Shown here: positions 40,853-58,404 of the stretch, piece after piece
How positions within the stretch are numbered: the first letter of the stretch is position 1
Layout: each line of letters starts with the position of its first letter
From: Amycolatopsis sp. 2-15
GTDB taxonomy: Bacteria > Actinomycetota > Actinomycetes > Mycobacteriales > Pseudonocardiaceae
Length of the DNA stretch: 64,000 nucleotides
Direction of reading: 5' to 3'
NCBI RefSeq assembly: GCF_030285625.1
Contig: NZ_CP127294.1
Span: 6,480,001 to 6,544,000 of the forward strand
Translations under genes and position numbers: made by a program
Notes under the pieces: model-generated
Databases searched by the model: none
What the model was told of the DNA's origin: nothing
The model's input: the letters and a program-made list of their open reading frames with translations, nothing else

Positions 40853-40986
40853 CTGTGTTTTTGGCCCCGGCTTCGCCGGGGCGTGCGAGATCGCCTTTGA
40901 GCCGGCTTCCGGATGGGGCGGTGCGATCGGCCCCCGGGCCGATCCGACCGCCCCATCCGGAAGCCGGCGCGATCTCGCGCTGTGGT
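40853..40986 (+). repeat. Palindromic covarying element, copy 1 (full)
   Basis: Parts in order: CTGTGTTTTTGG box, small hairpin CCCCGGCTTCGCCGGGG, outer stem GCGAGATCGC (40885-40894), spacer, perfect 22-bp arms at 40901-40922 and 40947-40968, near-palindromic centre around GATCGGCC, and outer stem GCGATCTCGC (40969-40978). It begins 9 bp after a stop codon. Arm sequence differs from the other copies but pairs perfectly with itself. Confidence 0.9.
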
Positions 40987-41048
40987 TGCGTTCGGAGATC
41001 AGGTGGGGAGGGGGCCGGGCGATTCGCGGGGGGTGTCCTATGTGGTTG

Positions 41049-42254
41049 TCAAGCCGCGGTTGTGGTGGGAGCGGGTTCGGGGTGGCGGTAGTGGGTGCCG
41101 TTGCGCAGCATGGCGTAGAGGACGTCGCAGCGGCGGCGGGCCAGGCAGATGAGTGCTGCGTTGTGTTTCTTGCCCTCGGCGCGTTTGCGGTCGTAGTAGG
41201 TCCTGCTGGTCGGGTCTGCCAGGGCGGCGAACGCGGCGAGGAAAAAGGCGCGTTTGAGCTTGCGGTTGCCGGTTCGCGCGGGATGTTCGCCCTTGATCGA
41301 AGACCCAGAACTGCGGGTGACAGGGGCGATGCCCGCGTAGGCGGCCAAGTGCCCGGAGGACTTGAAGTTCGAGGCGTCACCGATCTCCAGCAGGATGCGG
41401 GCTGCGGTCCTGACCCCGATGCCGGGCATCGAGATCAGGACCCCGGCAAGAGGGTGCGCATCGAGTATCCCCTCGACCTGCTCGGCGACGGCTTTGCGTT
41501 GCTGAAGCACGGTTTTCAGGCTGTCCGCGAGCCGGGGCAGCACGGTGTCTGCGGCTGCGGTGCCTGGAACGGTGACGGTTTGCTCGTCGAGAGCGGTCAT
41601 GATTGCGTCGACGAGTGCGTCGCCCATGCGGGGTGCGTGGACTTTGGCGATCGCGGCGAGTTTGCGGCGGCCCGCTTTGGCGATGCCGGCCGGTCCGCCG
41701 CAGCGGGAGAGGAGTTCCAGAACGGCCGGGTGGCTGATCCGTGGTCCGATGGCGCGTTCGAGGGCGGGGTGGATACCGGTGAGCAGACCACGGATCCGGT
41801 TGGCGATGCGGGTGGCCTCGCCGGCCAGGTCGTCATCGAACCCGACCAGCACATCCAGCTCGGCCAAGGCGTCGTCGCCGACGTCGACCGGCCGCAGCGT
41901 GTGCGGCAGCGAGCGGGCAGCATCGGCGATGACGAACGCGTCCCGGGCATCGGTCTTCGCCCGGCCCGGGTAGAGATCGGCAATGCGGCGCATCGCCAGT
42001 CCGGGCAGGTAGGCCACCTGATGCCCTGCCGCGCGTGCGACCGCGACCGGCAGCGCCCCGATCGTGGCCGGCTGGTCGACCACGACCAGCAGCGTTCCGT
42101 GCTGGGCGAGCTTGGCGAACAGCGCCCGCAGCTTCGGTTCGGTGTTGGGCAGCGGCCCGTCATGCAGCCGCTTCCCGTCCGGGTCCAGGCCGACCGCGTG
42201 GTGGCCACCTTTGCCGACATCCAGGCCGAGGAACACCCCGAAACTGCTGCTCAT
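41049..42254 (-). CDS. IS110-family DEDD transposase
   Basis: The 401-residue enzyme is full-length for the family. The N-terminal RuvC-like DEDD domain begins GVFLGLDVGKGGHHAVGLDP (first catalytic Asp in GLDVGK) and includes LYPGRAKTDARDAFVIADAA. The C-terminal Transposase_20 domain has ISMPGIGVRTAARILLEIGD, SSGHLAAYAGIAPVTRSSGS with the catalytic serine region, and GNRKLKRAFFLAAFAAL. No frame break is seen, so it may be active. IS110 recombinases are guided by a bridge RNA encoded in the flank next to the gene; for the IS110 group this is upstream. Confidence 0.95.
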   Translation of the reverse strand: MSSSFGVFLGLDVGKGGHHAVGLDPDGKRLHDGPLPNTEPKLRALFAKLAQHGTLLVVVDQPATIGALPVAVARAAGHQVAYLPGLAMRRIADLYPGRAKTDARDAFVIADAARSLPHTLRPVDVGDDALAELDVLVGFDDDLAGEATRIANRIRGLLTGIHPALERAIGPRISHPAVLELLSRCGGPAGIAKAGRRKLAAIAKVHAPRMGDALVDAIMTALDEQTVTVPGTAAADTVLPRLADSLKTVLQQRKAVAEQVEGILDAHPLAGVLISMPGIGVRTAARILLEIGDASNFKSSGHLAAYAGIAPVTRSSGSSIKGEHPARTGNRKLKRAFFLAAFAALADPTSRTYYDRKRAEGKKHNAALICLARRRCDVLYAMLRNGTHYRHPEPAPTTTAA

Positions 42255-42490
42255 CCACCATGCCGTTCGTTCGCCGCGACGTGGTCACCGGTCTGGCATC
42301 GATGGCCGGCACCCACGTTACGACGAGACCTACCCTGCGGCGGCCGTGTCCCTATCAGCGGTCCCTCGATGCCACCAGGCCCGGTGACACCACCCCCCGG
42401 ATCATGCCTACGACTGGGGGCGTCAGTCATGCCGAACCCGGCGACCACAACTCCCTGATCGAGAGCCACGAAAAAGGTAACGGGGGGGTG
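42255..42490 (-). ncRNA. Candidate bridge RNA region of the IS110 element
   Basis: About 235 bp between the transposase start and the presumed element end have no coding pattern. Published work on IS110 (bridge RNA / seekRNA) places the guide RNA in this position for IS110-group elements. The sequence has potential stem regions, such as the GGTGACACCACC and GTGGTCACCGG segments, but the loops and guides could not be assigned by eye. Confidence 0.45.
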
Positions 42491-42557
42491 ATGTCGGTTC
42501 TGGAGAGCGGGCGAATCCGGCGCGCGTGAGTGCCCGTGTTGGCCAGACTGCGGTGGC

Positions 42558-43202
42558 ATGGACACGCTGGGGAAGCTGCGTCTGGAAGTGGAAGCGATCT
42601 GGGGCCGCGACGACACCGGCCTCGCGGCGGGCACGGTGTTCGCGGTAATCACGACCTGCGACGGGCGCTCGGAGTTGATCGCCGGGCACGAGGCGCCGGA
42701 CCGGCCGACGGCCGTGACGGCGGCTCGGAGCTGGCTGCTGCCGGCGGCCGCGGAAGCGCCCGTGGCTCCGGCGGGGCCGACGCTCGTGCGCGAGCGCGGT
42801 GACCTGGGCCCGTCCGCGCCGCCCACGCCCGTGGGCGGACTACGCCGGCCTGCGCGCCCGAGCGCTGGACAGCGGGCGGCTGGAAGCTGCTGTTGGCCGG
42901 TGAGTGCGGCCCCTGGGCGGCTCTCGCCGACGGAGGCCAGGTCGTGAGCCTGGCTCACTGCGCCCGCCTCACCGCCGAGGCCGCGGAGGTCGGCGTGCAG
43001 ACGGCGGGGTCGCACCGCGGCCGCGGCCTGGCGGCGGTGGTCGTACGGGTGTGGACGGCGTTGTTCGCGCCAGGGGAGCGGATGCTCTTCTACAGCGCGT
43101 TCGAGACCAACGAGTCTTCCCACCGTGTCGCCGCGAATGTGCGGCGCCGAACCGCTTGGGATGCTGACCCGGCTGTTCGTGCTTGACCCTCAAGCGACGT
43201 AA
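42558..43202 (+). pseudogene. Decayed GNAT acetyltransferase
   Basis: Three segments of a GNAT enzyme lie in changing frames. An N-terminal part starts at ATG 42558 (DTLGKLRLEVEAIWGRDDTG). A middle part from about 42880 (GWKLLLAGECGPWAALADGG) includes motif A, SHRGRGLAAVVVRVWTALFA, and FYSAFETNESSHRVAANV. A last part after another shift reads GAEPLGMLTRLFVLDPQAT to TAA 43202. At least two frameshifts are needed. It stands between the IS110 element and a broken MerR gene, so the area looks like decaying accessory DNA. Confidence 0.75.
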
Positions 43203-43239
43203 GGCGCCATCGTCGGCGGGGACAGGAAACGCGGGGGAG

Positions 43240-43506
43240 ATGGGCTACTGGGTGACCGAAGTCGCCGCGTTCGCGGGGATCACCGTGCCCCACATTGCAC
43301 CGCTACGACGAGATCGGCCTGCTGTCGCCGAGCTGGCGCACCGCCACCGGCGCTTGAGCGAAGCCGATCTCGACCGGCTGCAGCGCGTGCTGTTCTACCG
43401 GGAGCTCGGATTCCTCTTCGAGACGATCGCCACAACGCCGCGCGCTGCTGAGCGTCGTGAGGGGGAGTGCGGCTACGAGACGCAGCAGCGGATGGCAGAG
43501 CTCTAG
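43240..43506 (+). pseudogene. Decayed MerR-family regulator
   Basis: ATG 43240 (ribosome site GGGGGAG) begins YWVTEVAAFAGITV, the first HTH helix of a MerR protein. The recognition part HRYDEIGLLSPSWRTATG is in a different frame, and RRLSEADLDRLQRVLFYREL returns to the first frame. So two indels scramble the wing. The C-terminal effector domain is missing: the frame ends 30 residues after FLFETIATT. MerR regulators of this look (TipA/SkgA-like) usually have 250 residues. Probably non-functional. Confidence 0.7.
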
Positions 43507-43520
43507 GTGGCCGACCCGGC

Positions 43521-43583
43521 AGCGAGATCGCCGGCCTCGAGGCGATCTCGCACGCCTCGGCGGAGCCGAGGCAGAAAACACAG
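43521..43583 (-). repeat. Palindromic element, copy 2 (inner hairpin deleted)
   Basis: In minus orientation it has the CTGTGTTTTCTG box, the hairpin CCTCGGCTCCGCCGAGG and both outer stems. Between the outer stems only CTCGAGGCCG remains, the spacer plus the foot of the arm. The 65-bp inner hairpin is missing without other change. It lies 27 bp before mshC. Confidence 0.88.
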
Positions 43584-43609
43584 TCCGTCTGTCCCGTTAC
43601 AGTTGAGTC

Positions 43610-44845
43610 ATGCAGACTTGGTCCTCCGTCGACGTGCCCCGGTTGCCGGGCACGCCTCGCCCGCTTCGGCTCCACGACACGTCGACCGGGCAGATCCGCC
43701 CGACGGCTCCGGGAGCCACCGCCCGGATGTACGTCTGCGGCATCACGCCCTACGACGCCACGCACCTCGGCCACGCGGCGACCTACCTGGCGTTCGACCT
43801 GGTCAACCGGATCTGGCGGGACAACGGGCACGAGGTCCACTACGTGCAGAACGTGACCGACATCGACGACCCGCTGCTGGAGCGCGCCGAGCGTGACTCC
43901 GACGACTGGGTGGTGCTCGCGATGCGCGAGACGGCGCTGTTCCGCGAGGACATGGAGGCGCTGCGCGTGCTGCCGCCGCGGCAGTTCGTGAGCGTGGTGG
44001 CGGCGATCCCGGAGATCGTGGAGGTCGCAGCGAAGCTGCTGGCCAACGGCAGTGCCTATCGGGTGGACGACGCGGAGTACCCGGACGTGTACTTCGACCA
44101 CGCGGCGAGCGGCCGGTTCGGGTACGAGTCGCGCTACGACGAGGAGACGATGGCGAAGTTCTTCGCCGAGCGCGGGGGTGACCCCGACCGCGTGGGCAAA
44201 CGGCACCCGCTCGACGCGCTGCTCTGGCGTGTCGAGCGGGAAGGCGAGCCGTCGTGGGAGTCGGAGCTGGGTGCCGGGCGGCCGGGCTGGCACATCGAGT
44301 GCAGCGCGATCTCGGTGAACCGGCTCGGGTTCGGGTTCGACCTGCAGGGTGGTGGTTCGGACCTGCGGTTCCCGCACCACGAGTACAGCGCCGCGCACGC
44401 CGAGGCCGTGGCGGGGGAGCACCCGTTCGCGCGCCACTACGTGCACGCCGGGATGATCGGTCTCGACGGCGAGAAGATGTCGAAGTCGCGCGGGAACCTG
44501 GTGTTCGTCTCGCGGCTGCGCGCCGACGGCGTGGACACCTCGGCCATCCGGCTCGCGCTGTTCGCCGGCCACTACCGCGAGGACCGGCCGTGGACCGACG
44601 CGCTGCTGGTCGAAGCGCAGGAGCGCCTGGCCCGCTGGCGTGAGGCCGTGGCGCTGCCCGCGGGTCCCGACGCGACGGAGACCCTCGCACGCCTGCGCGA
44701 CCACCTCTCCGACGACCTCGACACCCCCAAGGCCCTGGCTGCCATCGACGCGTGGGCGGACGCGGCCCTTCGCCGCGACGGTAGTGACGCCACCGCGCCC
44801 GGCCTGATCCGCATCGCGGTCGACGCCCTCCTCGGCATCGTCTGA
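43610..44845 (+). CDS. mshC: Cysteine:1D-myo-inositol 2-amino-2-deoxy-glucopyranoside ligase MshC
   Basis: The 411-residue class I aminoacyl-tRNA-synthetase-like ligase joins cysteine to GlcN-Ins in mycothiol synthesis. It has [20 protein letters not shown] near residue 40 (zinc Cys and the HIGH-type motif), [14 protein letters not shown] near 228, [16 protein letters not shown] near 254, and the KMSKS loop [10 protein letters not shown] near 291. MshC differs from CysRS by [12 protein letters not shown] at the start and by its shorter C-terminus, both seen here. ATG 43610 is the start. Palindromic elements flank it on both sides (copies 2 and 3). Confidence 0.95.
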
Positions 44846-44846
44846 A

Positions 44847-44889
44847 TTTTCTGCCCCGGCTTCGCGCGCGATCTCGCGCTGTGGTCGCC
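44847..44889 (+). repeat. Palindromic element, copy 3 (truncated)
   Basis: TTTTCTGCCCCGGCTTCG is joined directly to the 3' outer stem CGCGATCTCGC and the tail GCTGTGGTCGCC. The second half of the small hairpin, the left outer stem and the inner hairpin are deleted. It starts 1 bp after the mshC stop. The rest of the gap to 44950 is unassigned, with an AT-rich spot (TTAGTGTATAACGACCTATA). Confidence 0.82.
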
Positions 44890-44950
44890 GAAGCTGGGGC
44901 ACCTTGATCCGGGCGTTCGAGCTCGGGGCGCCCCATTAGTGTATAACGAC

Positions 44951-46576
44951 CTATACGGCCGCGGTTTCAACGGCCGCTAGCTCCAGGTGGTCGCCCTGCC
45001 AGCGGCGGCGCAGCCACCGATCATGAGAAGCAATGACGACGGCGCCCGGGGCGTCGTCGAGGGCGGCGAAGAGCTCTTCGGCCAGCGTGAGAGAGATGTG
45101 GTTGGTCGGCTCGTCGAGCAGGAGCACGTCCGGCGGGTCCGCGAGCAGCACCGCGAGCGCGAGGCGCCGCCGCTGGCCCACGGACAGCTCGCCGACGGGC
45201 CGGCCGAGGTCCCGTGAGGACAGCAAACCCAAGCGGGACAACGGCGGCGCGTCATCCCCGAGTTCGGCGCGGTAGACCTCGTGGGCCACGCGCTCCGGAT
45301 CGGGGAACACCACGTCCTGCTCCAGCAACCCCACACGCAGCCCGGGTCCGAAGTGGACGGCCCCGCTTGCGGGTGCCAGCCGGCCGGCCAGCACTGACAG
45401 GAGCGTGGACTTGCCCGCGCCGTTGCCGCCGGTCACGAGCAGCCGCGCCGTGCCGCTGACGTCGAGCCGGTCGAGGGTCAACCGGCCCGGCACGTCCAGG
45501 TTCCGCACCGAGATCGCCGGTCCTTCGCCTGACGCGGTGGCCGTGAGCCGCGCCCGGAACCGCAGCGGTGCGGGCGGTTTGCGCACCTGGTCGTGTTCGA
45601 GCTCGTCGAGCCGCAGCTGAGCGTTGCGGACGCGGCGGGACACCTGTTTCTGCACCCGCCCTCCCTTGAAGTTGTAGAGGTTCTTGTCTCCGTCGGGCTG
45701 CGCGCGGTTGTGCGCGACCCGCCGCGCCGTGATCACGACCGACTCCCGCAGCTCCTTCAGCTCGTCCTGTTCCTCGGCGAAGCGCTGCTCCCAGCGCGCG
45801 CGTTCGGCTCGCTTCTGGTCGAGGTAGTCGCTGTAGGTACCGCCGTAGCGCGTCGCCCCGCCGACGAGCCGGTCGGCCGGCGCCGGGTCGAGGTCGACGA
45901 TGTCGGTGCACACCGCGTCGAGGAACACGCGGTCGTGCGAGGACAGCACGACGATGCCGGAGAGCTCCACGAGGTGGTGCTCCAGGAACTCCATCGCGGT
46001 GTCGTCGAGGTGGTTGGTCGGCTCGTCGAGCAACATCGTGGCGGGACGGCGGATCAGCAGTGCCGCCATTCCGAGCCGGGACCGCTGCCCACCCGACATC
46101 TCGCCGAGTCGCCGGTCGCGCCCGAGCGCGCCGAGCCCGAGCCCGTCGCACACCAGCTCGGCGCGGCGGTCGGCGTCCCAGAGGTCGTGGGCCTGCGCCC
46201 ACTCCAGGAGCCTCCCGTACTCGTCGAGCGCGCTCGCGTCGTCGGGCCGGTCGGTCATCGCCGTGGTGAGCGCGTCGAGCCGTGCGGTGGCCGAACGAAT
46301 GTCGGCCAGCGCGTGGTCGAGGACATCGCCGAAGGTCGCCGACGCCGGGAACGGCAGCTCCTGCACCAGGAAGCCGACGTCGTCGCCGCGGACGATCTCG
46401 CCCGAGCGTGGCTGTTCGAGGCCGGCGAGCAGCCGCAGCAGCGTGGACTTGCCGGTGCCGTTCTCGCCGACGAGCCCGAGGCGGCGCCCGGCCGACGCGG
46501 TGACGGAGACGCCGTCGAGGACGGTCCTGGCGCCGTAGCCGAACACGACGTCGGTGGCTTTGAGGGACAAAGACAT
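44951..46576 (-). CDS. ABC-F family ATPase (ribosome-associated)
   Basis: The 541-residue protein has two ABC domains and no membrane segments. Domain 1 has Walker A GLVGENGTGKSTLL near residue 35, signature LGEMSGGQRSRLG and Walker B MLLDEPTNHLDD. Domain 2 has LVTGGNGAGKSTLLSVLAG near 385, GELSVGQRRRLALAVLL and LLLDEPTNHIS. Between them is the charged linker (KRAERARWEQRFAEEQDELK) of ABC-F proteins, which enters the ribosome E-site; many such proteins displace antibiotics. A Rv1473-like macrolide-resistance role is possible but not shown. ATG 46576. An upstream leader contains a candidate promoter and mini-ORF. Confidence 0.92.
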   Translation of the reverse strand: MSLSLKATDVVFGYGARTVLDGVSVTASAGRRLGLVGENGTGKSTLLRLLAGLEQPRSGEIVRGDDVGFLVQELPFPASATFGDVLDHALADIRSATARLDALTTAMTDRPDDASALDEYGRLLEWAQAHDLWDADRRAELVCDGLGLGALGRDRRLGEMSGGQRSRLGMAALLIRRPATMLLDEPTNHLDDTAMEFLEHHLVELSGIVVLSSHDRVFLDAVCTDIVDLDPAPADRLVGGATRYGGTYSDYLDQKRAERARWEQRFAEEQDELKELRESVVITARRVAHNRAQPDGDKNLYNFKGGRVQKQVSRRVRNAQLRLDELEHDQVRKPPAPLRFRARLTATASGEGPAISVRNLDVPGRLTLDRLDVSGTARLLVTGGNGAGKSTLLSVLAGRLAPASGAVHFGPGLRVGLLEQDVVFPDPERVAHEVYRAELGDDAPPLSRLGLLSSRDLGRPVGELSVGQRRRLALAVLLADPPDVLLLDEPTNHISLTLAEELFAALDDAPGAVVIASHDRWLRRRWQGDHLELAAVETAAV

Positions 46577-46692
46577 GGGGGATCACCGGCCCTGGTCTGT
46601 ACAGCGGATTCCCCGACGGGACTCGTGGCTCGCGGGAGCGGGGCTCGACCGGGAGCTGCCTCGGTGCGGGAAAAGGGCTGGGCTCAGCTGTC

Positions 46693-46735
46693 CATGATGA
46701 GGAGAGGTTAACGCAACACCAGTAGGGTTAGTCAA
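46693..46735 (-). promoter_or_regulatory. Candidate promoter and three-codon leader ORF of the ABC-F gene
   Basis: On the minus strand TTGACT (46735-46730) and TTAACC (46711-46706) are 18 bp apart. Ten bases further, ATG GAC AGC TGA (46695-46684) is a minimal leader ORF, about 105 bp ahead of the ABC-F start. Leader ORFs often control ABC-F resistance genes by attenuation. Suggestive only. Confidence 0.35.
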
Positions 46736-47217
46736 CCCCGAATTTCGCGGGGCTGCCGCGCGGCCTTGTCGACCTGCCGCGTGGCCAGGTCGGCCGCCGT
46801 CTCGCCCTCGGTCAGGAACGACACCAGCGCGGTGAGCTGACGGCGGTCGAACCCGGCCAGGCGCTCACCGAATCGCTGGGCGAGCGGGGCGTAGAGCTCG
46901 GTCAGCTCCGCCATGCGGTCGGGCAGCGCGCGCACGCGCAGCCGCCGGCGGTCCGCCGGGTCGGGCACGCGTTCCACGAGCCGGGCGCGCTCCATCCGGT
47001 CGAGCATCCGCGTGAACGCGCCGGTGGTCATCCCGAGCAGCCGAGCCAGCTCCGTCGGGGAGTCGGTGGCGCCGCTGTGCACGAGCTGCAGGCAGTGCAG
47101 CTCAGCCGGGGTCACGCCGAGCCGGTCGGCGACCGCGGTGTGGAAGCGGACCGTTGCGCTCACGAACCGGGGGAGCGCCAGTGCGGCGGCGGTGGCGAGT
47201 TCTCGCTGGTGGGGCAA
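46732..47217 (-). CDS. MarR-family regulator
   Basis: The 161-residue regulator has a winged helix centred at about 55-105: TDSPTELARLLGMTTGAFTR then MLDRMERARLVERVPDPADR and RRLRVRAL, the MarR DNA-binding and wing signature. The upstream frame lacks ATG or GTG starts, so TTG 47217 is proposed because GAGGA lies 9-14 bases ahead. It is divergent from the ArsR-MFS unit and probably regulates it, or itself. Its end touches the ABC-F promoter candidate. Ligand unknown. Confidence 0.8.
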   Translation of the reverse strand: MPHQRELATAAALALPRFVSATVRFHTAVADRLGVTPAELHCLQLVHSGATDSPTELARLLGMTTGAFTRMLDRMERARLVERVPDPADRRRLRVRALPDRMAELTELYAPLAQRFGERLAGFDRRQLTALVSFLTEGETAADLATRQVDKAARQPREIRG

Positions 47218-47267
47218 CAGACCGTCCTCGGCGCGGGAGTGGCTGGCAGAGACAACGACTGCACGAC

Positions 47268-47353
47268 ACAGTAACTGTCCGTGATGGTAGCGAAGCCCGT
47301 TGACGGCAGGTCGGGCGGCTGCAACTCTGAAAGGATAGTTTCGAAGTAACTGT
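47268..47353. promoter_or_regulatory. Repeated AGTAACTGT words between marR and arsR-like genes
   Basis: ACAGTAACTGT (47268-47278) is a perfect inverted repeat with one central base. The 9-mer AGTAACTGT occurs again at 47345-47353, 20 bp before the arsR-like start. CTGAAA and TTTCAG flank the second site. One of the two divergent regulators probably binds here. Confidence 0.5.
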
Positions 47354-47373
47354 TTCAGATATTCGGAGGACAG

Positions 47374-47961
47374 ATGGCCGAGCTGCCGCCGCGCAAACGC
47401 GTCGACGACGCCGAGCTGCTGCGCGCCCTGGCGCACCCGCTGCGTTCGGCGCTGCTGCACCACCTGATGGCCGTCGGGCCCCGCACGGCCAGCGAATGCG
47501 CCGAGGCCGTCGGCTCCACCGCGTCCAACTGCAGCTGGCACCTGCGCCGGCTCGCACAGCACGGCCTCGTGGAGCGCGCCGACGCCACCGACGGGCGCGA
47601 GCGGCCCTGGCGCGCCCTGCAGGTCGGCCTCGACCTCGGCGACCTGGGCGACGACCCGGCGCTCAACCGGGCGCAGCTCGCCGTGGTGGGTACGCAGCTC
47701 GCGGAGGAACAGGACCTCACGCGGCGCTTCCTCGACTCCCTCGAAACGCTCGACCCGGCTTGGCGCGCCGTCGGTGGCTTCAGCTCGTACACGCTGCAGG
47801 TGACGCCGGCGGAGCTCGACCGGCTGCTGCAGGCGGTCGACGGGCTGGTCCGCCCCTACGTCGGTGCCATCCGCGAAGACGCGCCGGAAGGCGCCCTGCC
47901 GGTGCACGTCGGCCTGCGCTCATTTCTGCGGCTCGGGCCGGACGGGGAGCCGGTGTCGTGA
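47374..47961 (+). CDS. ArsR-type winged-helix regulator
   Basis: The 195-residue protein has an N-terminal ArsR-like winged helix: LLRALAHPLRSALLHHLMAV near residue 15, then GPRTASECAEAVGSTASNCS and WHLRRLAQHGLVERADATDG. It lacks the metal-binding cysteine pair of metal-sensing ArsR proteins (the single Cys in SNCSW aligns inside the recognition helix). The C-terminal half is helical (AEEQDLTRRFLDSLETLDPA) as in the helix-turn-helix 20 class. GGAGGA precedes ATG 47374. It overlaps the MFS gene by 4 bp, so it likely controls this transporter. Confidence 0.87.
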   Translation: MAELPPRKRVDDAELLRALAHPLRSALLHHLMAVGPRTASECAEAVGSTASNCSWHLRRLAQHGLVERADATDGRERPWRALQVGLDLGDLGDDPALNRAQLAVVGTQLAEEQDLTRRFLDSLETLDPAWRAVGGFSSYTLQVTPAELDRLLQAVDGLVRPYVGAIREDAPEGALPVHVGLRSFLRLGPDGEPVS

Positions 47962-50970: not shown

Positions 50971-50991
50971 GCGGAGCCCTGAGACGGGAAA

Positions 50992-51019: not shown

Positions 51020-51038
51020 ATTCCGGCTGAAAAGCTGG

Positions 51039-51953
51039 TCAGCGGAGGCCGAAGCCGCCGCCTTCCTGGCCCGGGCGGCGCCGGCGCAGGTAACGCTCGA
51101 ACTCGGCCGCGATCTTGTCGCCGGACACCTCCTCCATCGTGAAGTCGGTTTCCGCGTCGCCGCGCTCTTCGAGGCTGCGGACGTACTCGCTGATCTCTTC
51201 GTCCTCGTCGGCCATCTCGCTGACGGTCCGCTGCCACTCCTCGGCCTGCTCGGGCAGCGCGCCCAGCGGGATCTCGACGTCGAGGACGTCTTCGAGCTTG
51301 TGCAGCAGCGCCAGGGTCGCCTTGGGGGACGGCGGGTGCGACACGTAGTGCGGCACGGCCGCCCAGATCGACACGGCGGGGATGCCGGCCTGCACGCAGT
51401 AGTCCTGCAGTACGCCCACGATCCCGGTCGGCCCCTGGTAGTTGTTCAGCTCGAGGCGGAACCGGCTCGCGGTGTCCTTGTCGTAGGCGGTCCCGGTGAC
51501 CGGGACGGGCCGCGTGTGCGCGGTGTCGGCCAGCAAAGCGCCGAGCGCGACGACCGTGTCCACGTCGAGCTGCATGATGTGCTCCAGCAGCTCCGCGCAG
51601 AACGCGCGCCAGCGCATGTTCGGCTCGGGACCCTGCACCAGCACCACGTCGCGGTCGAGGCCCTCGGGCCGGCAGATGGACAGGCGCGTGGTCGGCCACT
51701 CCACCTGCCTGGTCACGCCGTCGACCATGCTGATGGTCGGCCTGCTGACCTGGAAGTCGTAGTAGTCGTCCGGCTCCAGCTCCGCCAGGGGGGTGGCGTC
51801 CCAGTTGAGCTGCAGATGCTCGATCGCGCGGCTGGCCGCGTCACCAGCGTCGTTCCAGCCTTCGAAGGCCACCACCATCAGGGGGCGCTTCGATTCCGGG
51901 CGGGCGCGATCCGGGTCTCCGGGTCGCTGGGTCTCGTCGACTGGCTCACTCAC
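51039..51953 (-). CDS. PAC2-family protein (proteasome assembly chaperone-like fold)
   Basis: The 304-residue protein has the PAC2 signatures PLMVVAFEGWNDAGDAASRA near residue 25 and VVLVQGPEPNMRWRAFCAEL near 104, then VVALGALLADTAHTRPVPVT and ISIWAAVPHYVSHPPSPKAT-like text (here VSIWAAVPHYVSHPPSPKAT). The acidic C-terminus (SEMADEDEEISEYVRSLEER) is typical of actinobacterial members. Its role is unproven; a link to the proteasome is attractive since arc/mpa lies 10 kb away, in the same neighbourhood as in M. tuberculosis (Rv2125 and Rv2115c). GTG 51953 is the start. Confidence 0.9.
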   Translation of the reverse strand: MSEPVDETQRPGDPDRARPESKRPLMVVAFEGWNDAGDAASRAIEHLQLNWDATPLAELEPDDYYDFQVSRPTISMVDGVTRQVEWPTTRLSICRPEGLDRDVVLVQGPEPNMRWRAFCAELLEHIMQLDVDTVVALGALLADTAHTRPVPVTGTAYDKDTASRFRLELNNYQGPTGIVGVLQDYCVQAGIPAVSIWAAVPHYVSHPPSPKATLALLHKLEDVLDVEIPLGALPEQAEEWQRTVSEMADEDEEISEYVRSLEERGDAETDFTMEEVSGDKIAAEFERYLRRRRPGQEGGGFGLR

Positions 51954-52293
51954 CTTCCCAGCCTACGACCCTTCGCCCGTAACCTGTGCAGCATGTCCGA
52001 CCGCGCGCCGTCACCACCGCCGCCCGCCGGCGGCGTACGGGTCCCGGTGTGCGGGACACGCCGGGGAGCCGCAGCTCAGCGCCTTGTGGACGGCGCGCCG
52101 CACCCGCGCCCGTCGGCGCGATGCGGATGGGATACTGGAGACGATCCGGCCCGCCGTCGTGCTCGGTTCCCCCGGTGGACGGTCCGGGGCCGCCGCCGGC
52201 GCGACGCAAACCCACCCTTTCGGGGCGGATTCGCGCGGGTGTGCCGCGGCTGTCCGTCCGGCCACCCGCCGACGCACCGACAAGGAGAAAACC
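51954..52293. other. Intergenic, 340 bp, divergent PAC2/HAD promoters
   Basis: No convincing gene. An ATG at 51992 opens a frame with SDRAPSPPPPAGG but it has no ribosome site and no family look. The ribosome site of the HAD gene is at 52282-52287 (AAGGAG). Confidence 0.5.
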
Positions 52294-52980
52294 GTGACTG
52301 CACCGTCCTCTTCGGACGGACTGGGCGCCGTCCTGTGGGACATGGACGGCACGCTCGTCGATTCCGAGAAGCTCTGGGATGTCGCGCTGTACGAGTGCGC
52401 GGAAGCGCTCGGCGGCACGCTGTCGGAGGAGCAGCGGATGACGCTCGTGGGGTCCAACATGGACGCCACGGCCACCTACCTGCTGGAGGTCACCGCGCAG
52501 GAGGTCACGCCGGAGTCGGTGGCCGAGACCGGTGCGTGGATCCGCCGGCGCACGGCGGGCCTGTTCGACGACGCGCTGCCGTGGCGCCCCGGCGCGCGCG
52601 AAGCGCTGGCCGCGGTGAAGGCCGCCGGCATCCCGTCGGCGCTGGTCACGTCGACCGAGCGCGCGCTGACGGAGCTGGCGCTGCAGACGATCGGCCGCGA
52701 GTTCTTCGACGTCACGGTGTGCGGTGACGAGGTCGACGGCCTGAACAAGCCGCACCCGAGGCCCTACCTCAAGGCCGCCGAGCTGCTCGGCGTGCCGCCG
52801 GAGCGGTGCGTCGCGGTGGAGGACTCGCCGCCGGGTGCGGAGTCGGCCGAGCGCGCCGGCTGCTCGGTGCTCGTGATCCCGAACGACGTGGCGGTCCCGG
52901 CGGGGCCGCGGCGGGTGTTCCGCGAGTCGCTCGCGGGCGTCGACGTTGCCACGCTGGCCGCGTTGCTGCCGCGAGTGTGA
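52294..52980 (+). CDS. HAD-superfamily phosphatase / beta-phosphoglucomutase-like
   Basis: The 228-residue HAD hydrolase has motif [17 protein letters not shown] near residue 13 (nucleophile Asp and acid Asp), motif [13 protein letters not shown] (Thr) near 115, the Lys in [17 protein letters not shown] near 150, and motif [19 protein letters not shown] near 170. The alpha-helical cap lies between I and II. This is the PGMB-type subgroup, which acts on sugar phosphates. GTG 52294 follows AAGGAG by 7 bases. It ends 65 bp before hisE. The M. tuberculosis neighbourhood (Rv2121c to Rv2125) is similar, and some actinobacteria have a HAD enzyme in this position, but a histidine-pathway role is not shown. 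Confidence 0.88.
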
Positions 52981-53045
52981 CTCCTGCGGCATCGGGGTCA
53001 CCCGGGGCAGCGCCCGCCCGTGCGGGATGGAAGGATCTGCAGACC

Positions 53046-53309
53046 GTGAAGACCTTCGATGAGCTGTTCGCGGAGCTTGCCGAGCGCGCCCGCACCCGTC
53101 CCGACGGGTCCGGCACCGTCGTCGCCCTCGACGACGGGGTGCACGCACAGGGCAAGAAGGTGCTGGAAGAAGCCGGCGAGGTGTGGATCGCCGCCGAGCA
53201 CGAGTCCGACGACCGCCTCGCGGAGGAGATCTCGCAACTGCTGTACCGGGTGCAGGTGCTCATGCTCGGCCGGGGGATCTCGACCGAGGACGTGTACCGC
53301 TACCTGTGA
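53046..53309 (+). CDS. hisE: Phosphoribosyl-ATP pyrophosphohydrolase HisE
   Basis: The 87-residue all-helical enzyme removes pyrophosphate from phosphoribosyl-ATP, step 2 of histidine synthesis. Family features are [15 protein letters not shown] at the start, [20 protein letters not shown] near residue 32 with the metal-binding Glu residues, and [23 protein letters not shown] 53046 begins at the family N-terminus; an upstream extension of the frame is not conserved-looking. It precedes hisG by 35 bp, the actinobacterial hisE-hisG arrangement. Confidence 0.93.
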
Positions 53310-53344
53310 CGCGTTCGCGCACCGGAGATCGAGGAGAGAACGAA

Positions 53345-54190
53345 ATGCTGCGTGTTGCCGTGCCTAACAAGGGAGCCCTCGCCGCGGCGGCGGCCGAGAT
53401 GCTTTCCGAGGCGGGCTACCGCAAGCGACATGACTCGAAGGACCTGACCGTGCTGGACACGGTCAACGAGGTCGAGTTCTTCTTCCTGCGCCCCAAGGAC
53501 ATCGCGATCTACGTCGGCTCCGGCGAGCTCGACCTCGGCATCACCGGCCGCGACCTCGCGCTCGACTCGGGCGCGCCGGTCGACGAGATGCTCGCGCTCG
53601 GCTTCGGCGGATCCACGTTCCGCTACGCCGCCCCGGCCGGCCAGGACTGGAAGCCGGCCGACCTGCAGGGCAAGCGCCTGGCGACCTCGTACCCGCGGCT
53701 CGTGCGCGAGGACCTGGCGCGTCACGGCGTCGAGGCCGACGTGATCCGCCTCGACGGCGCCGTCGAGATCTCGATCCAGCTCGGCGTCGCCGACGCGATC
53801 GCCGACGTGGTCGAGTCCGGCCGCTCCCTGCGCCAGCACAACCTGGTGGCCTTCGGCGACCCGATCTGCGTGTCGGAAGCCGTACTGCTGCAGCGCGCGG
53901 GCAGCGACTCGGCGAAGGCGAAGAACCAGCTGGCCGCGCGGCTGCGGGGAGTCGTGTTCGCGCAGCAGTACATGATGCTCGACTACGACTGCCGGCGCAC
54001 GCTGCTGGAGCAGGCCATCGCCATCACCCCGGGCCTGGAGTCGCCGACGGTCGCCCCGCTCGCCGACGAGGACTGGGTCGCCGTGCGCGCCATGGTGCCG
54101 CGCAAGAAGGTCAACCAGATCATGGACGAACTCGCCGAGGTCGGCGCCAAGGCGATCCTCGCCTCCGACATCCGCTCCTGCCGGTTGTAG
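53345..54190 (+). CDS. hisG: ATP phosphoribosyltransferase HisG (long form)
   Basis: The 281-residue enzyme makes phosphoribosyl-ATP, the first and feedback-controlled step of histidine synthesis. It has [20 protein letters not shown] at the start, [20 protein letters not shown] near residue 55, and the PRPP-type region [20 protein letters not shown] near 140. The C-terminal regulatory (ACT-like) domain from about 205 ([20 protein letters not shown]) marks the long form, which does not need HisZ. ATG 53345. A strong hairpin follows the stop. Confidence 0.95.
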
Positions 54191-54208
54191 TTCGGTCGTA
54201 GCTTCCGC

Positions 54209-54245
54209 GGTCTGCCCGCCCCGGCTCCGCCAGGGCGGGCAGACC
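54209..54245 (+). terminator. Terminator after hisG
   Basis: GGTCTGCCCGCCC (54209-54221) pairs with GGGCGGGCAGACC (54233-54245) around an 11-nt loop, 19 bp after the hisG stop. Confidence 0.85.
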
Positions 54246-54316
54246 GGTCCGAGCCGACTTCGGTCCGTCCCGTAGCGACTTTGGTCCCGGAGCAAGGCTT
54301 TGCAGCCGACCACGCC

Positions 54317-54439
54317 GCGAGATCGCGCCGGTGTCTCGAATGGACGGTGCGATCGGCCCCGGCCGATCGCACCGTCCATTCGAGACACCGGCTTCGCGGC
54401 GATCTCGCCGTCTCGGCGGAGCCGAGACAGAAAACACAG
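54317..54439 (-). repeat. Palindromic covarying element, copy 4 (full)
   Basis: Minus orientation. CTGTGTTTTCTG box, small hairpin TCTCGGCTCCGCCGAGA, outer stems GCGAGATCGC-type at 54317-54326 and 54399-54408, perfect 22-bp arms at 54327-54348 and 54371-54392, and a perfect palindromic centre at 54349-54370 with loop CC. It follows the ParA stop on the minus strand by about 25 bp. A partial second small hairpin follows to about 54462. Confidence 0.92.
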
Positions 54440-54464
54440 CGCGAGTCGAGGCGGAGCCGAGACC

Positions 54465-55400
54465 TCAGCGCGGCCGGCTCGGGCGTTTCGGCATTAGGTC
54501 GTAGAGTTTTTTGCGGGCGCCGTTGTCGTTGGCATTGCGGGTCATCGCGACCTCGGAGATGAAGTCCTCGAAGACGAACTCGTCGTCGGCCGGGACCTCG
54601 GTCGGGCCGGGGTTCTGGGCGAGGTAGCCGTCGAGGGTTTCGGCGATCTCGCGGAACGACAGGGCCTGCAGGGTTTCCGGTGCGTACGTGGTGACGGGCA
54701 CGCCGTTGGCCGCGGCCTCGTTCATCACGACGCCGAGCGGCACGTGCGAGAGCATCGGGATGCCGAAACTGTACATCTCCTGCAGCGCCGCGGCCGCGTA
54801 GTGGGAGATCGGGCGGCGGTAGAGCCCGGGCACGATCCCGTACCACGCGATGGGCGTGCGGCCGGTGGTCTGTTCCACGTAACGCACCTGGTCGCCGAGC
54901 AGCCGCAGCGCACGGATGCTCGTTTTGTCCGGCTGCACCGGCACCAGGATCCCGTGCGACGCCGCGAGTGCGTTGTTGGTGAGCACGTCGAGCGCGGGCG
55001 GGCAGTCGATGACCACGTGGTCGTAGTTCGCGAACTGGATCACGCGTGCGAGCTGCCAGCCCGGCACGCGGAACGAGTCCAGCCGGCGGATCAGATCGAA
55101 CATGCCCGGCGACGTCGGGATCACGTCGAACGCGCCGCCGCGGCCGAGGTTGCTGCGCGGGTGCGGCACCGCGAGCTCCTCGATCGGGCCTTTCCAGAGC
55201 TTCGTGAGCGCCTTCGCGAGCGTGGGTGCGTCACCGGACGCCTCGGCCAGGCCGAGCATCTCGGTGGTGGCGTGTCCCTGCGGGTCGAGGTCGATCAGCA
55301 GCACGCGCCGGCCGCGTTCGGCCAGCGCCGCGGCCGCGCCCACGCTGAGTGAGGTCTTGCCGACCCCGCCTTTCTGGTTGACCACCGAGGTGATCTGCAT
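54465..55400 (-). CDS. ParA/Soj-family ATPase (orphan)
   Basis: The 311-residue P-loop ATPase has the deviant Walker A QKGGVGKTSLSV at residues 9-20, LLIDLDPQGHATTEMLG near 34, switch-type DHVVIDCPPALDVLTNNALA near 127, and VPVQPDKTSIRALRLL. No ParB gene or parS-like array is adjacent, and the chromosomal parAB normally lies near the origin, so this is an orphan ParA that may position another cargo. The C-terminal tail (ISEVAMTRNANDNGARKKLY) is unusual in being polar and basic. ATG 55400 has an AGGGAGCG stretch upstream. Confidence 0.88.
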   Translation of the reverse strand: MQITSVVNQKGGVGKTSLSVGAAAALAERGRRVLLIDLDPQGHATTEMLGLAEASGDAPTLAKALTKLWKGPIEELAVPHPRSNLGRGGAFDVIPTSPGMFDLIRRLDSFRVPGWQLARVIQFANYDHVVIDCPPALDVLTNNALAASHGILVPVQPDKTSIRALRLLGDQVRYVEQTTGRTPIAWYGIVPGLYRRPISHYAAAALQEMYSFGIPMLSHVPLGVVMNEAAANGVPVTTYAPETLQALSFREIAETLDGYLAQNPGPTEVPADDEFVFEDFISEVAMTRNANDNGARKKLYDLMPKRPSRPR

Positions 55401-55463
55401 GCCGGAGCGCTCCCTTGTCGATCGTTCCGCGAAGGCTATTGGATCCGGGGCGCGGGCGCGCGG

Positions 55464-56255
55464 TTATCCGCCCCCGGCCTGTCGCGGCCGGACGAGCAGA
55501 GCCTGCGCACCGGCGCCGACCGGGCCGGAGCCGTCGTGCAGGGTACTCGTGGCGGTGCCGATGCCGTGCGGCCCGACCAGGGTCACTGCGTCGAGCCCGA
55601 TCCACTCGCCCTCCGGCGCCCGGCGCAGGTGGACCGTGAGCTCCGAGTTGATGAACCACCAGTCGGCGGTGGGCAGGAAGTGGGACACGCCGTTGGCCGA
55701 GTCCGCGACCGCGAACAGCCGCTGCAACCCGGTGGGCTCCTCTCCGTCGACGAGCGGGATCCGCTGCCGGCCCCACACGGCGGCCGGGCCCGGCGCCGAG
55801 ATGCTGCCGCGCACCGCCCGCCACTCGACGGCGTTGAGGTAACCGCCGCGCCAGTCTGCGGGGAACGTGGTCTCCGTGCCCACCTCCGCCGAGGGAAGCA
55901 GGGGACCGGCGTCGGTCGCGACGCTCGTCGTGTCGGTGGTCGCGATCCGCCACGCGCTGGCCCGCGCGATCAGCTTGCCGTCCGCGGACAGCTCCGACTG
56001 CAGCAGCTCGACCGACCGGCCGGGCCGCTCGATCCACGACCGCTGGTCCAGCTCCGCGACGGGCGCCGGCCCGAGGATCTCGATGGTCACGCGCGCGATG
56101 AGCGCCGGGTGCGGCGCTTCGAGCCGCTCCAGCCCGCGCGCGAGCAGCGCCGACGGCGGGCCGAAGTGCTGCGCGCCGGGTGCCCAGGGGCCGCTGGTGT
56201 GCTCGGTCGCGGCATACCGCTCGTCACCGAGGGGGACGTAGAACGCGTCGGCCAT
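55464..56255 (-). CDS. TesB-like acyl-CoA thioesterase (double hot-dog)
   Basis: The 263-residue protein holds two hot-dog domains. The first half has QHFGPPSALLARGLERL near residue 30 and ARVTIEILGPAP near 54. The second half has DWWFINSELTVHLRRAPEGE near 195 and WIGLDAVTLVGPHGIGTATS then TLHDGSGPVG. The Asp and Thr/Ser of the second domain fit the TesB catalytic type. ATG 56255 overlaps the RecB-like stop (ATGA), so translation is coupled, although no shared function is evident. Acyl chain specificity unknown. Confidence 0.83.
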   Translation of the reverse strand: MADAFYVPLGDERYAATEHTSGPWAPGAQHFGPPSALLARGLERLEAPHPALIARVTIEILGPAPVAELDQRSWIERPGRSVELLQSELSADGKLIARASAWRIATTDTTSVATDAGPLLPSAEVGTETTFPADWRGGYLNAVEWRAVRGSISAPGPAAVWGRQRIPLVDGEEPTGLQRLFAVADSANGVSHFLPTADWWFINSELTVHLRRAPEGEWIGLDAVTLVGPHGIGTATSTLHDGSGPVGAGAQALLVRPRQAGGG

Positions 56256-57148
56256 CAGTCGGCCCGGTCCAGTGCGGTCTCTTCGCCGGCGTCGGGTTCC
56301 GGCCAGCCGGGGTATTCCGGTGGGGTGCCGCCGAACTCCGGGCAGTGCGCCTGGTGGTCGCACCACGAGCACAGCTTGCCCGGGTTGGGCCGGAAGTCGC
56401 CGGTCTTGCCGGCCTTCAGGATCGCCTGCCAGATGGCTTCCAGGGTGCGCTCGAACCGCACCAGCTCGGCCTCGTCGGGCGTGTAGGCGAGCGACTGGCC
56501 GTCGGTGAGGTACATCAGCTTCAGCTGCCGCGGCACGACGCCGCGCAGCCGCCACAGCACCACGGCGTAGAACTTCATCTGGAACATCGCCTTGGCCTCG
56601 CCGATCTCACGCGGCGCGGCCCCGGTCTTGTAGTCCACCACGCGGATCTCGCCGGTCGGCGCCACGTCGACGCGGTCGATGTACCCGCGCAGCAGCACCC
56701 CCGAGCCCAGCTCGATCTCCACGTGCAGCTCACACGCCTCCGGCTCCAGCCGGCGCGGGTCCTCCAGCTCGAAGTACGCGTCGAGCAGCTTCTCCGCCGA
56801 AGCGAGCCATTTGTCGGTTTCGCCCGCCTCGGCATCCGTGAACAGTTCGGTCCACTCCGGACTCGCGGCGGAGAGCTCGGCCCACGTGGGCGCCAGCAGA
56901 TCCTTCGCCCGTGGCGCCACGCGGTCACCCGCGGGCAGACCGAACAACCGTTCCAGCACGGCGTGCACGAGCGTCCCGCGCACCTGGGCCTTCGTGGGCA
57001 CCTCGGGCAGCCGGTCGACGGCCCGGAATCGGTAGAGGAGCGGACACTGTTTGAAATCGCTGGCACGTGACGGCGACAGCGCCGGCCGCCTGCGGACGGG
57101 CGCGTCACCGGTTCCCGGTGGGGTGGTGACCGTAGCGGTGTCGGGCAT
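56255..57148 (-). CDS. RecB-family exonuclease with Fe-S cysteine cluster
   Basis: The 297-residue PDDEXK nuclease (Cas4/AddB-like) has LSPSRASDFKQCPLLYRFRA near residue 25 with the first cluster cysteine, VRGTLVHAVLERLFGLP near 58 with the active-site His, GYIDRVDVAPTGEIRVVDYK with the Asp and then Lys of the PD-(D/E)xK core, and the C-terminal cysteines CSWCDHQAHCPEF near 268. One upstream and three downstream cysteines are the ligand set of a [4Fe-4S] cluster in this family. M. tuberculosis Rv2119 is the counterpart by position. The gene lies divergent to the M50 protease across the 1.3-kb repeat region. ATG 57148. Confidence 0.9.
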   Translation of the reverse strand: MPDTATVTTPPGTGDAPVRRRPALSPSRASDFKQCPLLYRFRAVDRLPEVPTKAQVRGTLVHAVLERLFGLPAGDRVAPRAKDLLAPTWAELSAASPEWTELFTDAEAGETDKWLASAEKLLDAYFELEDPRRLEPEACELHVEIELGSGVLLRGYIDRVDVAPTGEIRVVDYKTGAAPREIGEAKAMFQMKFYAVVLWRLRGVVPRQLKLMYLTDGQSLAYTPDEAELVRFERTLEAIWQAILKAGKTGDFRPNPGKLCSWCDHQAHCPEFGGTPPEYPGWPEPDAGEETALDRAD

Positions 57149-57197
57149 GGCCAGAGCGTAACGCTGGGCACCGACAGAATCTTTTGCCCCGGCTCCG

Positions 57198-57330
57198 CTG
57201 TGTCGTCTGCCTCGGCTCCGCCGAGGCGTGCGAGATCGCCTCGAGGCCGGTGTTTCGACTGGGCGGTCGGATCGGCCGGGGGCCGATCGCACCGCCCAGC
57301 CGAAACACCGGCGCGATCTCGCTGCCGGGT
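57198..57330 (+). repeat. Palindromic covarying element, copy 5 (full)
   Basis: Plus orientation. CTGTGTCGTCTG box, small hairpin CCTCGGCTCCGCCGAGG (57210-57226), outer stem 57230-57239, arms 57246-57267 and 57291-57312 (21 of 22 paired; the exception is a G-U pair on the minus-strand RNA), centre around GATCGGCC, outer stem 57313-57322. A further fragment of the box and hairpin (TTTTGCCCCGGCTCCG) precedes it at 57182. Confidence 0.92.
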
Positions 57331-57486
57331 CGCCTTTGTCTGGTGGCCATGGGAGGGAGGGAGGGTGCGGTCGCGAGGTGGTCGCCGCGCGGTGGAAGTG
57401 GTTTGAAGCGATCCGGCTGGCTGTGGGGGCGGCCAAAGGTAGATCCGAGTTCGTAGTGCGTGCCGCTTTCACCCATCAACGAAGCT

Positions 57487-58245
57487 CGCCATGCGCCGCG
57501 ACCAACTCCGATGCGCCCGGTCCGGCGACCGAGTCCGCCACGCCGGGCCTCCTGCCGAACCCCGACACGCCCGGGCCGCGTGGCGATCCGACACGCCCGG
57601 CCCCAGGATCGAACCCGGTGTGCCCGGCCCGGACCAAGGCTGACTCGGCCGGCCTTGCGACGAAGCGCGCCGTGCTCGGCCTTGCGACGAAGCCTGATGT
57701 GCCCGGCCGGACCAAATCCGACCTGCCCGGCCTCGCGACCAACTCCGACACGCCAGACCTCGCGACCGAGTCCGCCCGCTCTTGCGGCCGAGCTCGACAT
57801 GCCCGGCCTCGCGACCAACTCCGACACGCCAGACCTCGCGACCGAGTCCGCCCGCTCTTGCGGCCGAGCTCGACATGCCCGGTCTCGCGATCGAGGCCGC
57901 CGTGCCTGATTTCGCGACCGGGTCCGCTACGCCCGGTCTTGCGACCAAACCTGACATGCCAGCTCTTGCGGCCGAGCCTGCCCGCTCTTGCAGCCGAGTC
58001 CGACACGCGCGGTTCTCGCGACCACGGCCGCCATGTCTGCTCTCGTGAACATGTCTGACACGCCCGGTCTCGCGACCGAGCCTGCCCGCTCTTGCAGCCG
58101 AGTCCGACACGCGCGGTTCTCGCGACCACGGCCGCCATGTCTGCTCTCGTGAACATGTCCGACACGCCCGGTCTCGCGACCAACTCCGACAAGCCCGACC
58201 TCGCGACCAAGCCCACCTCGCCCGGCCCCCGACCAACCGCGCGTT
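57487..58245. repeat. Degenerate 27-bp minisatellite, about 28 units
   Basis: Units resemble CGACACGCCCGGTCTCGCGA plus CCGAGTC, mostly 27 bp, some 22-26 bp. Higher-order duplications are visible: an almost exact 76-bp period (TGCCCGG at 57724, 57800 and 57876) and a 104-bp period (CCTGCCCGCTCTTGCAG at 57977 and 58081). There are no unique spacers, so it is not CRISPR. Long frames are open on both strands only because the unit lacks stops. It fills the gap between copies 5 and 6 of the palindromic element. Confidence 0.92.
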
Positions 58246-58279
58246 CCCACCCAACTCACCCCGCGAAGGCGACCCACCA

Positions 58280-58404
58280 GCGAGATCGCGCCGGCTTCCC
58301 GATTGTGCGGTGCGATCGGCCCCCGGCCGATCCGACCGCACAATCGGGAAGCCGGCTTCGCGGCGATCTCGCACGCCCCGACGGAGTCGGGGCCAAAGAC
58401 ACAG
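58280..58404 (-). repeat. Palindromic covarying element, copy 6 (full)
   Basis: Minus orientation. Outer stems 58280-58289 and 58363-58372, perfect 22-bp arms 58290-58311 and 58335-58356, centre around GATCGGCC, small hairpin CCCCGACGGAGTCGGGG (58376-58392), and box CCAAAGACACAG. The small hairpin has an A-T pair where other copies have G-C. It ends 40 bp before the M50 gene. Confidence 0.92.

Follow-up and report, generated by a model that had tools for sequence, protein, structure and literature searches.

What is the palindrome that recurs between positions 40,853 and 58,404 of this window (the whole 64,000-nucleotide stretch of Amycolatopsis sp. 2-15 DNA that was analysed), and why do its arms differ between copies while each copy still pairs with itself? 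The six elements with a common layout named in the original prediction proved to be four full copies and two remnants, one internally deleted and one a short fragment, of a dispersed element of approximately 134 nt (approximately 125-145 nt across the family). Its parts follow the order CTGTG box, small hairpin, 10-bp outer stem, one-sided bulge of 5-6 nt and long inner hairpin. All four full copies are class I elements matched by our covariance model. The first, at 40853-40986 on the plus strand, comprises the box (40853-40863), small hairpin (40864-40882), outer stem (40885-40894 / 40969-40978), bulge CTTTGA (40895-40900), inner hairpin (40901-40968) and right end GCTGTGGT (40979-40986), and its tip is inverted relative to most class I copies. 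The second (54309-54439, minus strand; outer stem 54317-54326 / 54399-54408) has an inner hairpin (54327-54392) that is paired throughout, without a bubble, and lies between the convergent genes hisG (53183-54190, plus) and a ParA-family gene (54465-55400, minus). The third (57198-57330, plus strand; outer stem 57230-57239 / 57313-57322, bulge 57240-57245, inner hairpin 57246-57312) is immediately preceded by an extra partial box (57175-57197), and the fourth (58272-58404, minus strand; outer stem 58280-58289 / 58363-58372, inner hairpin 58290-58356) has the opposite orientation to the third. The internally deleted copy, also a covariance-model match (43514-43583, minus strand), has lost the inner hairpin and retains the box, small hairpin and outer stem. 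The fragment at 44842-44885 (plus strand) was seen by eye, has a 20-base match at E 0.007 and was missed by the covariance model; it contains the box, half of the small hairpin, the right outer-stem arm (44868-44877) and the right end.

Within the window the covariance model gave nine matches, five on the box-carrying strand and four in which the palindromic core was simply picked up in antisense, and it found nothing before 40853, in agreement with the earlier impression that the first 40 kb hold no copies. The outer-stem pattern GCGAGATCGC-N70-95-GCGATCTCGC occurs four times in the window and not once in 100 shuffles. The near-perfect pairing first described (21-22 of 22 positions per arm) stood in part: the variable stem is free of mismatches in three full copies and has a single A.C in 57246-57312, while beyond the 22 counted pairs a C.C/G.G double mismatch sits beside the GATCGGCC tip in three of the four window copies.

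Our data indicate that this is a real family with covarying arms in a Pseudonocardiaceae genome, and probably other than a standard terminator, as had been proposed. The covariance-model search suggested at the outset detected it in 24 of 80 Amycolatopsis genomes and, within the host family Pseudonocardiaceae, in 7 of the 46 genera sampled, with weak matches in two further actinobacterial families; since match counts per genome are capped and include antisense matches, they are not copy numbers. A pattern scan of named genomes returned at least 118 stretches, and among those listed most appeared by eye to be chance outer-stem matches. Twenty-three actinobacterial stretches from the scan were rechecked with the model, and those matching at full length above 50 bits were L072, L150, L086, L087, L120, L142 and L095. 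For further analysis 158 copies were chosen from the matches, excluding antisense and internally deleted ones, and L042 and one other were removed for having more than one outer-stem mismatch, which left 156. CTGTG forms the left end of 72 of the 156 copies, with the remaining starts mostly near variants, and the right end of the element is GNTGTGGT. The 5-6-nt bulge is present in 153 of 156 copies and entirely absent from two. Among class I copies the bubble is CG or CT against GC in 45 of 51.

We found that covariation in the family is very strong. Arms were said to differ between copies yet pair with themselves, and indeed class I left arms differ at a mean of 6.0 of 20 positions, compared to 0.9 mismatches between the two arms of one copy (40 unique arm pairs). 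The small hairpin also covaries, as first noted (at one pair U-A 32, C-G 21, G-C 1 and A-U 1; n=61). Double-change cells numbered 212 versus 58.1 in shuffles (61 Amycolatopsis copies). Across 37 diverse copies the covariation score was 0.641 versus 0.173 when shuffled, a value reached in 0 of 500 shuffles and approached by no slid version (at most 0.112), with double changes in 33 of 39 pairs.

The mismatches that remain in the stems are not evenly distributed between strands. On the box-first strand A.C outnumbers G.T by 57 to 9 among 110 arm-unique copies and by 66:14 among 142 unique copies (genome bootstrap 0.69-0.90), the same tally holding C.T 24, C.C 20, G.G 4, A.G 4, T.T 1 and A.A 1. 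By genome, 12 lean in one direction and 1 in the other, with ties in the remainder; exceptions to the excess are G026 (A.C:G.T 3:3) and G043 (0:1). Because A.C on the box-first strand corresponds to a wobble pair on the opposite strand, this excess suggests that the fold being maintained is probably that of the box-last strand, whether as RNA or as single-stranded DNA. The predicted bottom-strand RNA fold is the more stable in 41 of 43 B/C, 14 of 15 "other" and 29 of 36 class III copies (assignment to B, B/C and other is approximate, and several B copies are filed under other), but in only 25 of 51 class I and 3 of 10 class IV copies.

We think that there is about an even chance that these are non-autonomous mobile palindromic elements of actinobacteria, REP-like yet not REPs, which would be moved in trans. 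This reading is supported by the covariation and the strand bias of mismatches, and mobility in particular by many dispersed copies, a left boundary that is sharp by information content (151 anchored copies), the same arms elsewhere (seven G051 copies have identical class I arms at unrelated places), a mostly empty site, the use of one site in either orientation or by different subfamilies, and head-to-tail arrays joined at CTGTG. The mostly empty site is L188, where the element is absent from 25 of 30 loci, present in G051 and present in a deleted form in G000, and begins at the stop CTGA. No target-site duplication was shown, and the junction was compared with empty sites, by eye, at a single site. 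Arrays could arise through unequal recombination, and the similarity of copies through gene conversion. The original prediction foresaw neither the wider taxonomic spread nor the strand, the subfamily-specific bubbles, the sites at gene ends, the use of both orientations at one site or the arrays.

A tentative alternative, which we consider possible though well short of probable, is that a structured RNA is read from the box-last strand, in the simplest case a terminator or a stabiliser of mRNA 3' ends where genes converge, with dispersal being secondary. The strand-specific tolerance of wobbles and the bottom-strand folding energy are consistent with this, as is the recurrence in distant taxa of the B core TCTTCCCTC...CTCAGTCCAGA, which is recognisable in 9 of 9 copies of family f31 and, variants included, in 7 of the 23 copies that come from elsewhere in the host family, outside the genus. 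Gene context is suggestive as well, here as for the mobile-element reading: 62 of 128 classified copies lie between convergent genes, compared to 11 of the window's 48 gene pairs (five copies near a locus end were omitted, and 23 of 151 were unclassifiable), and a stop codon falls within the first 4-6 nt of the element in 18 of the 90 copies that have their left gene running towards the box. At hisG-parA, 17 of 19 element-free loci carry a plain hairpin, as judged by eye, and G051, G064, G057 and G033 carry only the element. However, 56 classified copies are in tandem and 10 in divergent contexts, both orientations are used at one site, and in the genomes empty at L188 the genes nearly abut, with no hairpin to be replaced. 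Moreover, 56 of 80 Amycolatopsis genomes give no covariance-model match at E 0.001, and reading of the window copies upheld the earlier remark that no T-run follows a hairpin.

We regard it as unlikely that the palindromes are neutral, with symmetry kept solely by template-switch mutation or arm-to-arm conversion and no selected structure. Template switching is known to homogenise arms, invert loops and introduce several compensatory changes at once, and has been proposed as a cause of asymmetric base-pair frequencies in RNA stems (PMC8794818, PMC8604942). Several features favour this reading: the left arms of class I correspond to the right arms of class B in reverse complement, two G051 copies are of left type on both arms, the 40853 copy has its inverted tip, two copies are fully paired, and in 59 same-site copy pairs both-sided changes number 140 versus 128 one-sided. 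Such copying alone does not predict the 66:14 excess of A.C over G.T, and bubbles and bulges are mostly retained rather than erased. The outer stem covaries between lineages as well, and the closest same-site pairs change mostly on one side, so arm copying is not immediate. Structural selection and arm-to-arm conversion were both offered at first; the former is now better supported, by the strand asymmetry of mismatches, the conserved stem interruptions and the one-sided changes in the closest same-site copies. Arm-to-arm copying probably happened occasionally, as the ground plan common to class B, class I and reverse-converted copies, the inverted tip in one copy and the loss of the bubble in two suggest.

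It is very improbable that the family belongs to one of the single-strand hairpin systems already described, whether REP/RAYT or IS200/IS605-derived elements or the attC sites of integrons: it does share an interrupted hairpin, one apparently preferred strand, a short left-end core, a palindrome conserved beyond its sequence, and inverted pairs and arrays, but the proposed RAYT link failed, with Y1_Tnp (PF01797) found in neither the host genome (0/1) nor the genus (0/80 genomes) and in 5 of 14 controls, and by reading there is no GTAG or CGTC tag. For the integron integrase (TIGR02249), 0 of 80 genomes exceeded the cut-off, a search that lacks a positive control since 0 of 14 control genomes exceeded it either. 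Sub-threshold matches occurred in 80 of 80 genomes and 14 of 14 controls; those listed span only about profile positions 235-303, and we take them to be ordinary tyrosine recombinases. No recombinase was present among ten proteins beside arrays or distant copies (five loci), and a search for plasmid or phage relatives of one class I copy found none. An autonomous version lying between two elements was rejected, since two inverted pairs enclose a luciferase-like monooxygenase or a FUSC-like membrane protein and no transposase. A bridge-RNA (IS110) origin, considered because an IS110-type gene adjoins one copy, received no support. The view that no described family fits has held: Rfam gave 0 matches at threshold in the window and eight loci (five sub-threshold matches in the latter, the best being mir-341 at 34.4/90 bits), and our literature searches returned no description of the element.

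ERIC and similar 100-150-nt repeats are imperfect palindromes, intergenic and non-autonomous, ERIC being enterobacterial; going by this general description, our element shares their length, palindromy, sites and non-autonomy and differs in host group. REPs are dispersed intergenic imperfect hairpins, non-autonomous and often in inverted pairs, whose single-stranded DNA is recognised and cleaved by RAYT (PMC3733652, PMC2817692). Our element resembles them in being dispersed, intergenic, imperfectly paired, non-autonomous and often in inverted pairs, and its bubbles, bulges and mismatch bias point to one preferred strand. It differs in its length of approximately 135 nt, made up of two hairpins plus an outer stem, compared to 20-40 bp in REPs, in its CTGTG/CTGA rather than GTAG left core, in the lack of a Y1 transposase match in the genus, and in arms that covary freely. 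Rickettsial-type CGTC REPs are likewise dispersed palindromes apparently without a dedicated transposase (PMC3733652); tag, length, hosts and architecture differ. The attC sites are 57-142 nt, poorly conserved in sequence and conserved in palindromic fold; their bottom strand is the one recombined, and extrahelical bases together with an unpaired spacer determine this choice of strand (PMC2727003). The asymmetry of our element may be of a similar kind; unlike attC, the dispersed unit is the palindrome itself, no cassette genes were noticed, and no integrase exceeded the cut-off in the genus.

Returning to mobile elements moved in trans, we suggest that a recombinase or transposase would recognise the folded single strand with box-last polarity and insert it at a short core of CTG type (CTGTG/CTGA). 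Insertion would often fall at a stop codon and so leave genes intact. Arms would stay paired because the enzyme reads the fold, with arm mutations arising mostly stepwise through wobble pairs and by template switching between arms now and then. Some copies at convergent gene ends may double as terminators. A more specific version, which we put forward as a possibility we rather doubt, is a new single-strand hairpin mobility system in which the box-last strand moves folded into CTG-type cores at or beside stops, forms arrays and uses a trans enzyme outside the Y1 and integron-integrase families.

Our data give the antibiotic-producing actinobacteria a further family of dispersed, structured elements. 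The mobilising enzyme, if one exists, is something other than a Y1 transposase of the Pfam kind. The strand whose fold is maintained can probably be read from sequence, which is seldom so for DNA palindromes, and the arms, which change fast yet remain paired, are natural material for testing whether compensation is stepwise or due to template switching. Furthermore, their sites at the 3' ends of genes mark these elements as candidate influences on how transcription terminates between convergent genes.

The window holds four full copies of the palindromic element, at 40853-40986 (+), 54309-54439 (-), 57198-57330 (+) and 58272-58404 (-), and two remnants, at 43514-43583 (-) and 44842-44885 (+), which together are the six elements of the original prediction. 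The outer-stem pattern occurred four times in the window versus 0 in 100 shuffles, and a covariance model built later recovered the same four full copies and one deleted copy, with no match before 40853, as had been reported for the first 40 kb. Across the whole 10.05-Mb genome, this self-complementary pattern was found at 22 places, one of them a composite (8069324), and the reversed control pattern at none; 23 full copies were parsed from the genome. An IS110-family transposase gene (DEDD_Tnp_IS110 and Transposase_20; 41049-42254, minus strand) directly adjoins the 40853-40986 element. Degenerate tandem repeats with a CGCGACC-type unit occupy the interval (57494-58230) that separates the two inverted elements, and in another Amycolatopsis genome, G051, the corresponding two elements are just ~225 bases apart.

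Read from the box, the element comprises CTGTG with a short T-rich stretch, a small hairpin of ~19 nt, a 10-bp outer stem, a one-sided bulge, a long inner hairpin, the closing outer-stem arm and the right end GNTGTGGT. The bulge is single-sided and 5-6 nt long in 153 of 156 copies, most commonly CTTTGA (34) or CTTTAA (19). Information content across 151 anchored copies rises sharply where the box begins and fades past the right end, which indicates a discrete unit. Outer stems vary by lineage, with both sides changed (GCGAGATCGC in 79, GCGGGATCGC in 45, CCGAGATCGC in 8 and GAGAAATCGC in 5 of 158 copies). The window type, class I, combines variable, nearly always paired arms with a double mismatch adjoining GATCGGCC. 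Of 51 class I copies, 45 place CG or CT opposite GC here, 2 pair fully, 1 has the inverted arrangement and 3 differ in another way. Class B has an internal loop that sets TTCCCTCCC opposite a GAGTCC-type sequence, and class III (outer stem GCGGGATCGC), which is less uniform, and class IV carry other recurrent near-tip mismatches. At the left end of some copies (loci L259, L028, L188, L025 and L193), the box and half of the small hairpin are partially duplicated head-to-tail, the duplication at L259 taking in the whole small hairpin. Copies at L002, L026, L027, L188 and L206 have in common a G-rich sequence (GGTCGCC...GGGTGGGTTGGG-like) past the right end, and a longer form of the element may therefore exist.

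We found that the hairpin arms covary, as first proposed. Among 61 copies, 98.0% of cells were paired versus 89.2% in shuffles, double-change cells numbered 212 versus 58.1, and the covariation score was 0.252 versus 0.083, with 0 of 500 shuffles reaching 0.252 and slid controls at or below 0.047; the outer stem is invariant in this set because it was how the copies were found. Among 37 diverse copies, in an alignment fitted to the model and leaning towards it, double changes occurred at 33 of 39 pairs and the score was 0.641 versus 0.173 in shuffles (slid controls at or below 0.112); the number of further pair types was unexceptional, being reached by 124 of 500 shuffles.

Selection for structure and arm-to-arm gene conversion had both been offered as the source of compensatory change, and our data point mostly to the former route. 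Same-site pairs between genomes (n=59) contained 140 both-sided, 128 one-sided and 5 other changes, and some of these pairs may be independent insertions that inflate the both-sided count. Changes are one-sided in the closest pairs (e.g., L018/L179, L036/L172, L298/L310 and L303/L312), which argues that compensation is mostly stepwise. Some copying from arm to arm probably took place as well: the left arms of class I look like the reverse complement of the class B right arms, and left-type sequence fills both arms in two G051 copies. Tip inversion of the kind at 40853 is ascribed to template switching in one published report (PMC8794818).

Known families and partners were not recovered. Rfam gave no match at threshold in the window or in 8 loci, and an open-access literature of partial coverage, searched with palindromic-repeat, MITE, RNA-motif and motif strings, held nothing resembling a family description among the matches listed, in line with the original prediction, which knew of none. 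Y1 transposases, of which the RAYT type had been suggested for a search, were found in 0 of 80 Amycolatopsis genomes, and the one copy tested had no phage or plasmid relatives. No integron integrase scored over the cut-off in the genus genomes, in a search run without a positive control.

The element behaves as a mobile unit. Seven G051 copies at unrelated places share one set of class I arms. Of 30 loci compared for one convergent site, 25 are without an element and 3 are unreadable, while G051 carries a full copy plus a partial extra box and genome G000 an internally deleted copy; by eye, the inserted sequence starts at the CTGA in which the empty genomes have their stop codon. Where the left gene points at the box (90 copies), its stop codon falls inside the first 4 or 6 bases of the element in 18. 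The gap between hisG and a ParA-family gene has a full element at 6 of 30 loci, a cut-off part at 1, a remnant at 1 and none at 19 (3 unreadable); three subfamilies are present, and the orientation shared by G000 and G049 is opposite to that in G051, G064, G057 and G033. Many other Amycolatopsis without the element there (L260-L273) have unrelated hairpins in this gap, for example TGAGTGTTTAGGCGGGTTAGAACCCGCCTAAACACTCA, which may belong to a different family of repeats or terminators. At another site, both flanks match and the element in G028, G001 and G067 is opposite to that in G009, G039 and G064. Head-to-tail arrays joined at CTGTG were also found (3 x 115 and 2.3 x 131, with a three-unit array identified by eye). 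By gene calls based on codon composition only, the 128 classified copies divide into 62 in convergent, 56 in tandem and 10 in divergent contexts; under the same caller the window's 48 gene pairs divide into 11, 25 and 12.

Searching other Pseudonocardiaceae, as had been suggested, yielded further copies. Model R1 matched 24 of 80 Amycolatopsis genomes at E 0.001 and, at E 0.0001, 50 of 297 genomes of the family sample, which fall in 7 of the 46 genera sampled. Among the matches listed from named genomes are Actinokineospora auranticolor, two Lentzea species and a record labelled Nocardia sp. NRRL S-836, with a weak match (54 bits) in Allorhizocola rhizosphaerae. The copy in the Nocardia-named record (L087) has the length and score range of the Lentzea copies L120 and L142, so the genus given for that record may merit a check. 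At the level of the order, model R2 matched 13 of 397 genomes, 11 belonging to the host's own family, and at the level of the class 6 of 394; two other families, f8 and f31, scored 50-67 bits. Among the matches listed, the B-type core TCTTCCCTC...CTCAGTCCAGA can be made out in 9 of 9 f31 copies and, in exact form, in 0 of 4 f8 copies; with variants allowed, it occurs in 7 of the 23 copies found in other genera of the host's family. Broad but patchy, this distribution suggests that class B is ancestral but does not prove it.

We asked which strand carries the fold. On the box-first strand, variable-stem mismatches were A.C in 57 and G.T in 9 cases (110 arm-unique copies), and 66 and 14 under a slightly different mask (142 unique copies; genome bootstrap 0.69-0.90). 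These A.C mismatches are G.U or G.T wobbles on the opposite strand. The bias is alike on both contig strands for classes I, III and IV (A.C 18 and 16, G.T 4 and 3), which argues, weakly, against a replication-strand bias. The predicted RNA fold of the box-last strand is more stable in 41 of 43 class B/C, 14 of 15 'other' and 29 of 36 class III copies, in 25 of 51 class I copies and in only 3 of 10 class IV copies. The covarying fold of the element, its spread and its mobile behaviour are well supported, and the case for the box-last strand is good; most simply, the functional form of the element would be a single strand of box-last polarity, as RNA or DNA.
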